Of a stretch of 64,000 nt of DNA, positions 58,592 to 63,251 are shown piece after piece (position 1 is the first letter of the stretch; every line of letters starts with the position of its first letter). Origin of the DNA: Thermosediminibacter oceani DSM 16646 (GTDB lineage Bacteria > Bacillota > Thermosediminibacteria > Thermosediminibacterales > Thermosediminibacteraceae); assembly GCF_000144645.1 (NCBI RefSeq), contig NC_014377.1:806001-870000 (forward strand), given 5' to 3'. The notes under the pieces are model-generated. The model was not told the origin of the DNA and made no database searches. It saw only the letters and a program-made list of their open reading frames with translations. The position numbers were made by a program, and so were the translations under genes.

Positions 58592-58603
58592 GTGATACCT
58601 TCA

Positions 58604-58769
58604 AAGCAGCGATAAAACCTTAACACTTCAAATTTGAGCGATAGCCTCATAATGTCATTGGGTGGGATCCCTCCTTAATGGGTTTTTGGTTTGCCATATC
58701 CATAATACCCCGGGAATACCCACCCTTTGCAATGTCTTTTTTACTTAACGAAACTCTGGCTCATCTACA
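58604..58769 (-). mobile_element. Internally deleted IS remnant
   Basis: Read on the minus strand, it has the right-hand end of the neighbouring IS (inverted repeat 58747-58769), the transposase leader with its ribosome site and the start codons ATG ACA TTA, then jumps to a sequence like the transposase 3' part (VLRFYRCF against ALKFYRCF in the full copy). The left inverted repeat is missing. Base differences to the full copy show that the two are diverged. Confidence 0.75.
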
Positions 58770-58784
58770 AAATTTTATGTCAGC
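58770..58784. repeat. 15-base direct repeat, left copy
   Basis: AAATTTTATGTCAGC, identical to 60056-60070, brackets the full-length IS. It starts exactly at the end of the remnant, so it may be a target duplication or part of a tandem junction. Confidence 0.75.
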
Positions 58785-59928
58785 TGTAATGTGCCATAGT
58801 TTCGTTCAATAGCTTTTTATTTCTGGGCAGGTTATCCCAGGGCAAAGAAGAGATGTCAAAAAGCAAAGAAGTGTAATTAGAAAGCTGATCCAAAACAACT
58901 ACAGGCATAGAACCAATTGCAGGATGATAAAAGCAGCGATAAAACTTCAACGCCTCAACAGGAGTCATTCCATTCATGTTTTTGCCAAAATGCGGCCGCC
59001 TGTAGTTGAAATATAGTATCCAATTTTGAGCCATCTTTAGGAATGAAGTCCTTGAAGTTACTTTTTTCAAGTTTAAAGCGTAAAACTCCTCATCATCAGT
59101 GCGGTGAGAGCGTTCAACGAAGCAATTTGTTTCCTTATTCCTTTCCGGGATATTAAGCAAAGATACGTTCCAATGATCGAAAATAAGTTTTTGAATGAGT
59201 TTTCTTTTACGAGAGCCGGCACTGCCTCCGAACTCTGCTCCATTGTCTGTTTGAAAGAAGAGTTGATGTTTTACACCGAAGGCTCTAAGCCAGGCTGCCA
59301 CAAGCAGCATGAAAGTCAACCCATTTTTAAAATCGAGAGAATCGGCATACGCAATAAAGCGCAACCTTGTTTTAATATCAATAGCAGTGAACTGAAAAGG
59401 AGGCAGCTTATTTTTGAAAATAGATGCATAAGCTTCGGGAGGCAAAGCCGATTGATCGGCGATATGTTTTGCATCGATCTGCCAGAGCTGCAAAGGTTCG
59501 AAGGCGGAGAAATCTGTAGCAAATCGGCGGGAGCCGGTAATCGTCTTGTGTTTACGGCAGTGTATACCGTAACGTCTTCTAATATTTCGAATAGTAAAAG
59601 GGGAAAGTTGAATATTGAAGGTATTTTTAATGAACAATGCCAGCCTTTTAGAGCCCAGATTAGTTTCTTTTGCCAGAGTAACGACCAAATTTTCGATGTG
59701 CTCCGGAGTTCTGTTAGGCATGCGGAATTTAGGTCCTCGTTTTTTGATACAGGCCGATATATCCCCATTAGAAAGCCTGAAACGCTCTCTTAATTTATAC
59801 ACCCATCTTGGAGTAACACCCAAGATTTTAGCGGTTTCTTTAACGGAATGAGACTCAAGTAAAGAGATAGTGATTTGAGCAACAGCCTGGGGATTACCCG
59901 AAGCTTTAAGTTTTTGGTATAATGTCAT
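58780..59928 (-). CDS. DDE transposase, IS481-like (integrase core)
   Basis: A 382-residue transposase from the ATG at 59928, 11 bases after AAGGAGG. The N-terminal helix-turn-helix (SVKETAKILGVTPRWVYKLRERF) is followed by an integrase core with the triad in LWQIDAKHI, FFQTDNGAEFGG and the Glu in CFVERSHRTDDEEFY. Family placement (IS481 rather than IS3) rests on the single-frame architecture and is tentative. The stop codon TGA lies outside the inverted repeat, in the flanking direct repeat. The frame is otherwise intact. Confidence 0.85.
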   Translation of the reverse strand: MTLYQKLKASGNPQAVAQITISLLESHSVKETAKILGVTPRWVYKLRERFRLSNGDISACIKKRGPKFRMPNRTPEHIENLVVTLAKETNLGSKRLALFIKNTFNIQLSPFTIRNIRRRYGIHCRKHKTITGSRRFATDFSAFEPLQLWQIDAKHIADQSALPPEAYASIFKNKLPPFQFTAIDIKTRLRFIAYADSLDFKNGLTFMLLVAAWLRAFGVKHQLFFQTDNGAEFGGSAGSRKRKLIQKLIFDHWNVSLLNIPERNKETNCFVERSHRTDDEEFYALNLKKVTSRTSFLKMAQNWILYFNYRRPHFGKNMNGMTPVEALKFYRCFYHPAIGSMPVVVLDQLSNYTSLLFDISSLPWDNLPRNKKLLNETMAHYS

Positions 59929-60055
59929 TGGGTGGGATCCCTCCTTAGTGGGTTTCTGTTGTTCCATATCCATAATACCCCAGGGATACCCACCCTTTTG
60001 CAATGTCTTTTTCACTTTAATAAAGTAGTGTGAACGAAACTGTGGCTCATCTACA
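58785..60055 (-). mobile_element. IS481-like insertion sequence, full length (1271 bp)
   Basis: Bounded by imperfect inverted repeats, TGTAATGTGCCATAGTTTCG from 58785 and TGTAGATGAGCCACAGTTTC inward from 60055. It is flanked by 15-base direct repeats and contains one transposase gene. It sits between pyk and the ilvE leader; the ilvE -35 box is five bases beyond the right repeat. Confidence 0.8.
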
Positions 60056-60070
60056 AAATTTTATGTCAGC
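60056..60070. repeat. 15-base direct repeat, right copy
   Basis: Second copy of AAATTTTATGTCAGC (58770-58784), immediately outside the right inverted repeat of the IS. Confidence 0.75.
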
Positions 60071-60074
60071 CCCC

Positions 60075-60104
60075 TTGACAACAGCAAAAAGCTGGTGTTA
60101 AAAT
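60075..60104 (+). promoter_or_regulatory. ilvE leader promoter
   Basis: A perfect TTGACA (60075-60080), an 18-base spacer and TAAAAT (60099-60104), about 40 bases before the riboswitch core. Confidence 0.8.
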
Positions 60105-60145
60105 ACATATCAAATCCGAATAATTTTCCAGTCTAAAGCATAATT

Positions 60146-60276
60146 AGGAAGTGTACCTTAGGGTTCCGGCCATAAGGCGTCAGCGACCGAGCGGTACAAT
60201 CCGGGGAAACCCGGAACACCGTGAGCATAAAAGGCTCCAGCGGCAAGTTCCTAAAAGAACTAACCGCTGTTTTTTT
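60146..60276 (+). promoter_or_regulatory. ykkC-type riboswitch, probably ppGpp class
   Basis: The core starts GTGTACCTTAGGGTTCCGG at 60151, matching the ykkC signature, followed by GACCGAGCGG, a GC hairpin (CCGGGGAAACCCGG), ACACCG and a TAAAAGGCTCC segment. An intrinsic terminator follows: CAGCGG (60238-60243) pairing toward CCGCTG, then seven T. ykkC subtype 2a RNAs bind ppGpp and occur before branched-chain amino acid genes, which fits ilvE; guanidine and PRPP classes are less likely here. Ligand binding would favour read-through during starvation. Confidence 0.8.
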
Positions 60277-60284
60277 ATAATCAA

Positions 60285-60558
60285 AAACCGCAAAAATGTG
60301 ATGAAGGAGACGGAATTAATGATCACGGTCAAAGAGAGCCGGGGAAGGTGAAAGCCGGTACCGGATCATTGATTTCTAATCACTCCGGAACAGCCCGGGC
60401 GAAATTTGAGTAGTCCGGAGCCGCATCAAAGCGTTAAATGAACGAGGCCCGCCTTTAATGACGGTTCGGGTAAATCAGGGTGGTACCGCGTGGAAAACTC
60501 CCCTCGTCCCTGAGATATGACGTGTATCTCAGGGGCTGAGGGGATTAATTTTTTGATA
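60285..60558 (+). promoter_or_regulatory. T-box riboswitch, probably isoleucine-specific
   Basis: The T-box motif AGGGTGGTACCGCG is at 60477-60490. AGAGAG and GGTGAAAGCC fit stem I. The probable specifier is ATC at 60379-60381, in the context CTA-ATC-ACTCCGGA, giving Ile. The terminator pairs CCCCTC..CCCTGAGATA (from 60499) with TATCTCAGGG..GAGGGG and is followed by a T tract. It lies directly after the ppGpp-type riboswitch and its terminator. Confidence 0.85.
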
Positions 60559-60587
60559 AAAATAATAAAAATCAGGGGGTTTTAAAA

Positions 60588-61472
60588 ATGAGTATCCAGG
60601 TTTACATCAACGGCAGTTATTTTCCGAAGGAGGAAGCAAAAATTTCGGTATTTGACCACGGCTTCCTTTACGGTGATGGAGTTTTTGAGGGCATACGGGC
60701 TTACGACGGTAGAGTATTCCGGTTAAGACAGCATATCGATAGACTTTACAGCGGAGCAAGAGCGATAATGCTCGATATACCGCTTTCCAAAGATGAAATG
60801 GTAGAGGTGGTACTGGAGACTCTGCGGCGGAATCGTTTAAGAGACGCGTATATCAGGCTGGTTGTCTCACGGGGGGAGGGGGACCTTGGGCTCGATCCCA
60901 GGAAATGCAGTAAACCCACCATCATATGCATAACGGATAAAATCGTGCTGTACCCTCAGAAAATGTACGAGGAAGGGCTCGAAATAATAACTGCGGCCAC
61001 GCGCAGGAATACGCCGGAAGGCGTAAATCCCCAGGTGAAGACCCTGAATTATTTAAATAATATAATGGCGAAAATAGAGGCAAACCAGGCGGGAGTTATG
61101 GAAGCCCTTATGCTTAACACCGATGACTACGTGGCCGAATGTACAGGGGACAATATCTTCATAGTCAAAGACGGTGTCCTGATTACTCCGCCGACCTACT
61201 CCGGAATACTCATAGGTATTACAAGAAATGCTATAATCGAGCTGGCGCAAAAGCTCGGTATAAAGGTGGAGGAAAAACTTTTCACCCGTTACGAAGTATA
61301 TGCGGCGGATGAATGCTTCCTAACCGGCACGGCCGCTGAAGCCATCCCTGTAGTGAAAGTCGACGGCAGGGTAATTGGCGACGGCAAGCCCGGAACAATA
61401 ACACGGCGGCTCCTGGAAGCTTTTAAAGAACTGGTTAGGACCGACGGCGAAAAAATTTACCTCGAAGACTGA
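60588..61472 (+). CDS. ilvE: Branched-chain amino acid aminotransferase
   Basis: A 294-residue class IV PLP aminotransferase. The Schiff-base lysine is Lys151 in PQVKTLNYLNNIMAK, typical for IlvE. GFLYGDGVFEGIRAYDGR and ECTGDNIFIVKDG are present. It interconverts Val, Leu and Ile with their oxoacids, the last step of their synthesis. The ATG follows GGGGGTTTTAAAA. Its leader has a ppGpp-type riboswitch and a T-box in series, so expression needs both signals. A terminator follows directly, so ilvE is monocistronic. Confidence 0.95.
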   Translation: MSIQVYINGSYFPKEEAKISVFDHGFLYGDGVFEGIRAYDGRVFRLRQHIDRLYSGARAIMLDIPLSKDEMVEVVLETLRRNRLRDAYIRLVVSRGEGDLGLDPRKCSKPTIICITDKIVLYPQKMYEEGLEIITAATRRNTPEGVNPQVKTLNYLNNIMAKIEANQAGVMEALMLNTDDYVAECTGDNIFIVKDGVLITPPTYSGILIGITRNAIIELAQKLGIKVEEKLFTRYEVYAADECFLTGTAAEAIPVVKVDGRVIGDGKPGTITRRLLEAFKELVRTDGEKIYLED

Positions 61473-61479
61473 ATCGGCG

Positions 61480-61506
61480 ACCCGGCTTAAAATAGCCGGG
61501 TTTTTT
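61480..61506 (+). terminator. ilvE terminator
   Basis: ACCCGGCT (61480-61487), a 6-base loop, AGCCGGGT (61494-61501), then six T. Confidence 0.93.
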
Positions 61507-61592
61507 GGTGGCTTTTTAAAAAATTGCCTTAAAGGATAAAGTACGATAAAAGTAGTTATATATGGAGAAGCGCTGGTAGAGTTAAGGTTTAA

Positions 61593-62141
61593 TTGAACCC
61601 GTCACATTTTTTGCTTTTGCTGTGTCTATATATACGGAAGCCCGAGCTCGGGACGGGGGTGTTGTTTCTGGACTACGTAGAGGTGTTTACCAATTATTAC
61701 AGTAAGGTATATAAACAGCTGCTATATATATTAAACGATCCTTTTCTTGCAGAAGACCTTGCGCAAGAGGTATTTTTGAAATTTTACCGGAATCCCCCCG
61801 AAAAAGAAGAATGTATAGGAGCGTGGCTTTTTCAGGTGGCAAAAAATGTGGCTTATAATCATATAAGAGGTGAAAACAACCGGATACATAGGGAGATAAA
61901 AGCCTGTCTTTTTAAGGGAACAGAAATGTATTCTCCATCATACGCGCAGGAAGAGCAGATCTACGTCCGGCAGGTGCTGAAGAGGATGGATGAAAGAGAC
62001 AGGACCATATTGATCCTGAAACTTTCCGGTTACAGCTACGAGGAAATAGCAGGAGTTCTGGGAGTAAAAAAGACTTCGGTGGGTACTCTCATAGCTAGGG
62101 CTCAAAGGAGATTCAAAGAACTTTATGAAAAGGGGGTGTAA
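61593..62141 (+). CDS. ECF-type RNA polymerase sigma factor
   Basis: A sigma-70 family protein with region 2 (FTNYYSKVYKQLLYILNDPFLAEDLAQEVFLKFY) and region 4 (LKRMDERDRTILILKLSGYSYEEIAGVLGVKKTSVGTLIARAQRR). The start is uncertain. TTG at 61593 gives 182 residues with AAGG upstream but adds a hydrophobic tail unusual for the family; the region 2 homology only begins near 61668, and GGGGG at 61655-61659 would suit a start there (GTG 61659, TTG 61662 or CTG 61668). A 12-base palindrome, CCCGAGCTCGGG, lies at 61641-61652. The anti-sigma gene follows after three bases. Confidence 0.9.
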   Translation: MNPSHFLLLLCLYIRKPELGTGVLFLDYVEVFTNYYSKVYKQLLYILNDPFLAEDLAQEVFLKFYRNPPEKEECIGAWLFQVAKNVAYNHIRGENNRIHREIKACLFKGTEMYSPSYAQEEQIYVRQVLKRMDERDRTILILKLSGYSYEEIAGVLGVKKTSVGTLIARAQRRFKELYEKGV

Positions 62142-62144
62142 CCT

Positions 62145-63251
62145 GTGTGTTATGATGAGGGAGTATTGCAGGCATTTATGGACGGTGAATTGAGTCGGGA
62201 AGAAGAAAATGAGATAAGAGTCCACCTGGAAACCTGTAAGACCTGTACACAACAGGTGGGTGAATTGAAGGCCCTAAACGATTTCGCCCGAAGCAAACTC
62301 GCCGTAGGCTTTAACCCCGGCGAGGAATATATCAAAAAGCGCTTTAAATACGTAATGATGAGGAAGGGAGTGTCGGATTTGGTGAGAAAGTACGGAAGAG
62401 CCATCGCCGGTTTTGCGGCGGCATTGCTGGTTTCGTCGACGCTATGGTTTGCTCCCGTCAGGGATGCGGCGGCGGATTTTCTGAGCATATTCAGGATATC
62501 GAAGGTCCAAGCTGTTAAAATCACTCTGGAAGACCTAGAGCACATTAAGCAACAGTTAAATGGAAGAGGGATAAGAGATATAGATCTAAAACAGTACGGT
62601 AGAGTTAAAGCCACTGGTGGTGGCTTTGAAGAAGTCAAACCTGAGGAGATAGGTTTACTTCCTGAGAAAGTTGGCTTTAATTTCAGGTCGCTGAAGGCTC
62701 CCGGAGGCTTTAAATTGGCTTCTGCTGCGCTGGAGAAACCCATGCGCATAGAAATTACTCCAAACGTGGCCAACATGAACAAGCTGATATCAACGCTGGG
62801 AGGCACCAAACTGTTGCCGGAGGAACTGGATGGAAAAACCTTCGTCATAAACACCAAAGGTACTGTACAGCAGTACTTTATCCAAAATACTGCTAAAAGT
62901 GAAGAATATAAATCCTTCTCTTTAACCCAGATGGGAGCTCCGAATATACAGGTTCCGGAGGGCGTGGACCTGGAGGCCGTCAGGCAGGCGGTGCTGGCGC
63001 TTCCTTTCCTGCCGGATAACCTGAGGGAGCAGCTTTACGGTATCGAGGACTGGAACACCACCGTACCGCTGCCCGTACCTGCAGAAGAAGTGGATACGGA
63101 AGAGATAATTGTTAACGGTAAACCCGGTCTTTTGATGAAAAAATCGTGGGGCTACAACGCCATTATATGGATCGACGGTGAGACGATTTTCAACATAGAG
63201 GGTAACCTGTCGCAGCAGGAATTACTTCAAATAGCAAGTCTTCTGAGGTGA
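62145..63251 (+). CDS. Zinc-finger anti-sigma factor with large outer domain
   Basis: A 368-residue membrane protein. The zinc anti-sigma motif is His27-x3-Cys31-x2-Cys34 (VHLETCKTC). One membrane helix lies at about residues 82-105 (AIAGFAAALLVSSTLWFAPV). The outer 260 residues have a repeated beta pattern without a family I can name, similar to the DUF4367 region of other Firmicute anti-sigma proteins. It should hold the ECF sigma inactive and respond to an envelope signal. The GTG has AAGGGGGTGTAACC upstream. The ABC gene starts five bases after the stop. Confidence 0.88.
   Translation: MCYDEGVLQAFMDGELSREEENEIRVHLETCKTCTQQVGELKALNDFARSKLAVGFNPGEEYIKKRFKYVMMRKGVSDLVRKYGRAIAGFAAALLVSSTLWFAPVRDAAADFLSIFRISKVQAVKITLEDLEHIKQQLNGRGIRDIDLKQYGRVKATGGGFEEVKPEEIGLLPEKVGFNFRSLKAPGGFKLASAALEKPMRIEITPNVANMNKLISTLGGTKLLPEELDGKTFVINTKGTVQQYFIQNTAKSEEYKSFSLTQMGAPNIQVPEGVDLEAVRQAVLALPFLPDNLREQLYGIEDWNTTVPLPVPAEEVDTEEIIVNGKPGLLMKKSWGYNAIIWIDGETIFNIEGNLSQQELLQIASLLR

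Follow-up and report, generated by a model that had tools for sequence, protein, structure and literature searches.

Which signals decide whether ilvE, the branched-chain amino acid aminotransferase gene of Thermosediminibacter oceani, is transcribed? The question is raised by a leader of about 476 nt within the window, the 64,000-nucleotide stretch of DNA analysed here, in which promoter, ykkC-fold aptamer, terminator, T-box, second terminator and ilvE follow one another in this order, all on the + strand. A preliminary description had placed two switches, each with its own terminator, in one leader upstream of ilvE, and its coordinates proved correct, from the -35 box TTGACA at 60075-60080 to the start of ilvE at 60588. 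The promoter (TTGACA-N18-TAAAAT, 60075..60104; -10 box TAAAAT at 60099-60104, spacer of 18 bp) matches the consensus at 11 of 12 positions. The same promoter is found in T. litoriperuensis, the nearest named relative, whose IlvE is 96% identical and in which the tandem leader is kept whole. In a scan of 60030-61560 this was the only strong promoter-like site, upstream of both switches, and no second strong promoter internal to the tandem leader was found; the arrangement is thus one transcript with two terminators and without an internal promoter, as a ppGpp/T-box AND gate demands. The gene itself (60588..61472) encodes a product that scores above the cut-off of the NCBIfam models PRK08320 (497 bits, cut-off 363) and TIGR01122 ilvE_I (347.9 bits, cut-off 245.55). 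Directly after ilvE and its terminator, 61593-63251 holds an RNA polymerase sigma-factor-like gene and then a gene for a putative membrane anti-sigma-like protein, as judged from translation only.

The tandem leader is far beyond chance, and we consider it highly probable that a ppGpp aptamer and an isoleucine T-box in series gate ilvE in an AND-like manner. The first switch was located with a ppGpp-type covariance model (R1) built from 19 loci upstream of ilvB, ilvE, livK and glutamate-synthase genes, with T. oceani left out. Its sole match in the window is the aptamer at 60141..60255 (104.9 bits, E 7e-23), which has the ykkC fold with the conserved core and a P0 helix pairing UUAGGAA (60144-60150) with UUCCUAA (60248-60254), and this helix shows compensatory changes across the 19-locus alignment. 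The first intrinsic terminator (CAGCGG...CCGCTG-T7, 60238..60276; -15.6 kcal/mol, z -5.4 against shuffles) shares 60238-60254 with P3 and P0 of the aptamer. Since aptamer and terminator compete for this segment, the ligand should prevent termination. The minimum-energy fold of the aptamer alone has P0 closed, and adding 20 downstream bases shifts it to the terminator fold. The second intrinsic terminator (60499..60554), a hairpin of -35.8 kcal/mol (z -8.3 against shuffles) followed by a T-run, is mutually exclusive with the antiterminator, as expected for the competing terminator of a T-box.

We infer from these structures the switching by each half of the T. oceani leader and the combined AND logic. 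From one promoter, polymerase would meet in the leader two independent switches in series, each acting on transcription termination ahead of ilvE. Binding of ppGpp or pppGpp would close P0 and thereby tie up 60238-60254, bases required for the first terminator, letting polymerase pass; the first half would then be an ON switch, as the PRPP and ppGpp members of the ykkC family are said to be (PMC6031431). Polymerase would next reach the T-box reading isoleucine, where uncharged tRNA-Ile would pair at two places, with the specifier and, by way of its free ACCA end, at the UGGU bulge. This pairing would stabilise the antiterminator and keep the second terminator from forming, making the second half an ON switch too. 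Full ilvE expression would be expected only with the stringent response on and tRNA-Ile uncharged, which approximates an AND gate; a Rel-type ppGpp synthetase gene is present in the genome. Each terminator may leak, which may give a multiplicative output in place of a Boolean one. The inputs are also linked to each other, in that uncharged tRNA-Ile on ribosomes is itself a driver of ppGpp synthesis.

How much the aptamer contributes can be judged from relatives, and here the strongest competing explanation finds its support: that the aptamer makes little difference, the T-box alone exerting control and the first terminator serving as a constant attenuator. The ilvE leaders of Fervidicola (L016), a Tepidanaerobacteraceae MAG (L018) and Thermovorax (L019), at about 1160-1220 of these loci, lack the aptamer and retain the first terminator hairpin and its T-run before the T-box. 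A further leader (L017) carries a truncated aptamer of 26.1 bits, and another (L021) keeps the T-box with the first terminator gone. L016-L019 and L021 thus keep the T-box with the aptamer absent or impaired, and the group as a whole cannot depend on what the aptamer contributes. Because the terminator is retained without the aptamer, we infer that this decay series records loss, not gain, of the aptamer. Control by the T-box alone nevertheless appears improbable for T. oceani itself, since the aptamer is complete both there and in T. litoriperuensis (104.9 and 101.2 bits with the ppGpp-type model) and the T. oceani RNA has been reported to bind ppGpp (PMC10112252). The T-box specifier also varies among these close relatives: AUC (Ile) is found in Thermosediminibacter and Fervidicola (L016), and GUC (Val) in L018, L019 and L126 as well as, read by eye, in L017.

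The serial gate therefore remains our preferred reading, and the next point is the amino acid that its second half would sense. The T-box leader (60292..60514) is a full-length match to Rfam RF00230, whose gathering score of 93 it narrowly misses (91.2 bits, E 1.7e-20), and comprises stem I and the T-box motif AGGGUGGUACCGCG. At gathering thresholds Rfam gives no match anywhere in the window, because the T-box falls 2 bits short and no ppGpp family is among the matches. The motif AGGGTGGTACCGCG lies at 60477..60490, and its UGGU bulge (60481-60484) is placed to pair with the ACCA 3' end of tRNA-Ile. The T. oceani tRNA-Ile(GAT) does end in ACCA, which serves as a consistency check only, given that tRNA-Leu and tRNA-Val fit equally. 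The specifier was called with a reading rule (three bases, one base, a four-base lower helix) calibrated on T. oceani's own T-boxes, for which an earlier automatic reader, found to be poor, was dropped. Of the other T. oceani T-boxes the rule called nine, every one in agreement with the gene that follows (valS, ileS, metS, trpP, serS, pheS, cysE, thrS and proS, named by eye from the translated proteins); the leuS (CUC) and glyS (GGC) T-boxes were left uncalled by the script, and their specifiers were read by eye. For the ilvE leader it returns AUC, isoleucine, at 60379..60381, a branched-chain codon that fits the controlled pathway and bears out the isoleucine assignment made beforehand.

This result departs from the literature, in which all 31 tabulated ppGpp/T-box tandems, ppGpp leading in 15 and the T-box in 16, are labelled T box(Leu) (PMC9481103 Table 2), and ppGpp-then-T-box leaders before ilvB do read CUC (Leu). 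That the T. oceani T-box senses tRNA-Leu, as the published table would have it, is nonetheless very doubtful: its specifier reads AUC by a rule that holds for nine further T. oceani T-boxes, that of ileS (likewise AUC) among them, and T. litoriperuensis also has AUC before ilvE. On these grounds we rejected leucine as the reading of the T. oceani ilvE specifier. Searching the phylum gave a wider view of the isoleucine reading. The ppGpp-type model matches at E 1e-4 in 211 of 399 genomes, PRPP loci included. Among about 110 loci inspected, a T-box lies downstream of the aptamer in 12, with the specifiers CUC (nine), AUC (two) and GUC (one), and upstream of it in eight, all before ilvE. These T-box-first ilvE leaders (L171, L172, L182, L184, L185, L186, L188 and L217) read AUC, six of them by script; for L182 and L217 the script gave an unrelated triplet and UCC first, and AUC was read by eye only. 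By gene, ilvB leaders have CUC (Leu) in 7/7 read, and ilvE leaders have AUC (Ile) or GUC (Val). On balance, it seems probable that the second input in ppGpp/T-box gates depends on the gene under control and is not always leucine, in either order of the switches, and that T. oceani holds an isoleucine-tuned AND gate, a variant absent from the published table.

The identity of the first ligand is the better settled half. The ykkC-type loci for the models were gathered from the class, and a PRPP-type model was built from 19 purine-gene loci. Held-out PRPP loci are separated clearly by the two models (L199, L220 and L222: 107.5-112 bits with the PRPP model vs 65-69 with the ppGpp model; for L199, 112 vs 69). 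With ilvE loci from other lineages the PRPP model discriminates less cleanly, as seen in L171, a T-box-first ilvE leader scoring 90.3 bits with the PRPP-type and 80.3 with the ppGpp-type model; for T. oceani it is thus the 48-bit margin that counts, not the sign alone. Scores of 56.6 bits with the PRPP-type model and, in a relaxed-threshold search, of 31.5 bits with Rfam guanidine-I RF00442 (gathering threshold 63) compare with 104.9 for the ppGpp-type model, so that neither alternative scores better and the prior assignment to the ppGpp class of ykkC is upheld; PRPP and guanidine-I identities were both rejected. Single bases agree. In the segment CGG-C-AAG (60241..60247) the base after CGG of P3, 60244, is C. 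Tabulated against the downstream gene for about 100 loci, this base is mostly G where a purine gene follows, and C, A or T at the ilvB, ilvE, livK and glutamate-synthase loci. In our reading of the alignment, 60244 would be equivalent to G96 of the PRPP aptamer, where a G-to-A change turns a PRPP aptamer into a ppGpp aptamer (PMC6031431), and position 49, mapped in the same way, is a pyrimidine instead of A (GAGCGG vs GAGAG of guanidine-I). In vitro binding of both ppGpp and pppGpp by the T. oceani ilvE riboswitch is reported in a review (PMC10112252), after Sherlock, Sudarsan and Breaker 2018, contrary to what a failure of the ppGpp assignment would have entailed. The aptamer before ilvE is the single strong one of ykkC type in the genome, and the reviewed riboswitch is therefore the RNA at 60141-60255. 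That the first switch senses PRPP or guanidine, which share the fold and of which guanidine-I is the only match Rfam offers, can be given next to no credence in view of the weaker scores, the C where most purE/purB loci have G, the ilvE context and the reported binding of ppGpp.

Taken together, reported aptamer binding and tabulated AND gates mean that the finding is already known. The tandem before ilvE is known in kind, which agrees with the expectation that it would be no new principle, ppGpp/T-box AND gates having been tabulated before (PMC9481103), and the aptamer itself is known as well. The refinements are the isoleucine input and the decay in relatives. Closest is the T. oceani ilvE ppGpp riboswitch itself (ykkC subtype 2a; PMC10112252), from the same species and the same gene; in its part on this RNA the review describes the aptamer, whereas here a T-box is seen to follow. 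The tandem ppGpp/T box(Leu) AND gates (PMC9481103 Table 2; PMC5912903 Figure 6C) likewise combine two ON switches with their own terminators, ppGpp then T-box, but the T. oceani specifier is AUC (isoleucine) and that of near relatives GUC (valine), not leucine. Similarly, the ilvE riboswitch of Desulfitobacterium hafniense is a termination-controlling ppGpp-type ON switch that works as a reporter in B. subtilis (PMC10112252, PMC12373219); unlike the T. oceani leader, it is treated as a single switch in the passages of these papers that deal with it, which do not mention a T-box.

Upstream of the promoter lies a second feature of the locus, an IS481-like element at 58785-60055 with its transposase at 58783-60015 on the - strand (NCBIfam transpos_IS481, 124.6 bits, below the cut-off of 224). 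Its right end is 19 bp before the -35 box of ilvE. All eight T. oceani copies or remnants with an accessible right flank sit 18-20 bp upstream of TTGAC, and the ninth right end stems from an earlier insertion at the site upstream of ilvE, with the second copy now lying after it. Downstream of the T. oceani copies are the ilvE leader, the ileS T-box, three tRNA operons, two riboswitches (SAM and cobalamin) and one other unit. Across 10 genomes belonging to the class (58785-60055 plus loci L095-L102, L275, L276, L279, L289 and L294-L319), 23 of 27 right ends, some of them at sites common to sister species and hence not independent, have a promoter with at least 10 of 12 consensus matches at 18-24 bp (mode 19); such a promoter is found at this distance from 0.74% of random window positions. 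This association points to promoter-targeted insertion, the element entering at a constant spacing before sigma-A promoters. The insertion pattern consists of a target duplication of about 15 bp, 4 bp and TTGACA, in constant orientation and mostly before tRNA operons, T-boxes and riboswitches. At 58600-58784 an older and diverged copy of the element survives as a remnant with an identical 15-bp target AAATTTTATGTCAGC, so that two insertions took place one after the other at a single spot before the ilvE promoter. In T. litoriperuensis the ilvE promoter is present without the element. A limited literature search for promoter-targeting insertion sequences returned nothing relevant, which is weak evidence of absence, and we know of no precedent for promoter-targeted insertion of this kind. 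The association is probably more novel than the tandem leader and merits separate study.

For T. oceani, the ilvE leader represents a natural two-input RNA device in a thermophile, and with its first half biochemically characterised the AND-gate prediction is directly testable with ppGpp and tRNA-Ile. The breakdown of such a gate can be followed in its relatives, the aptamer being lost and the terminator kept. For the family of tandem leaders, the isoleucine specifier suggests that the published leucine label is too narrow.
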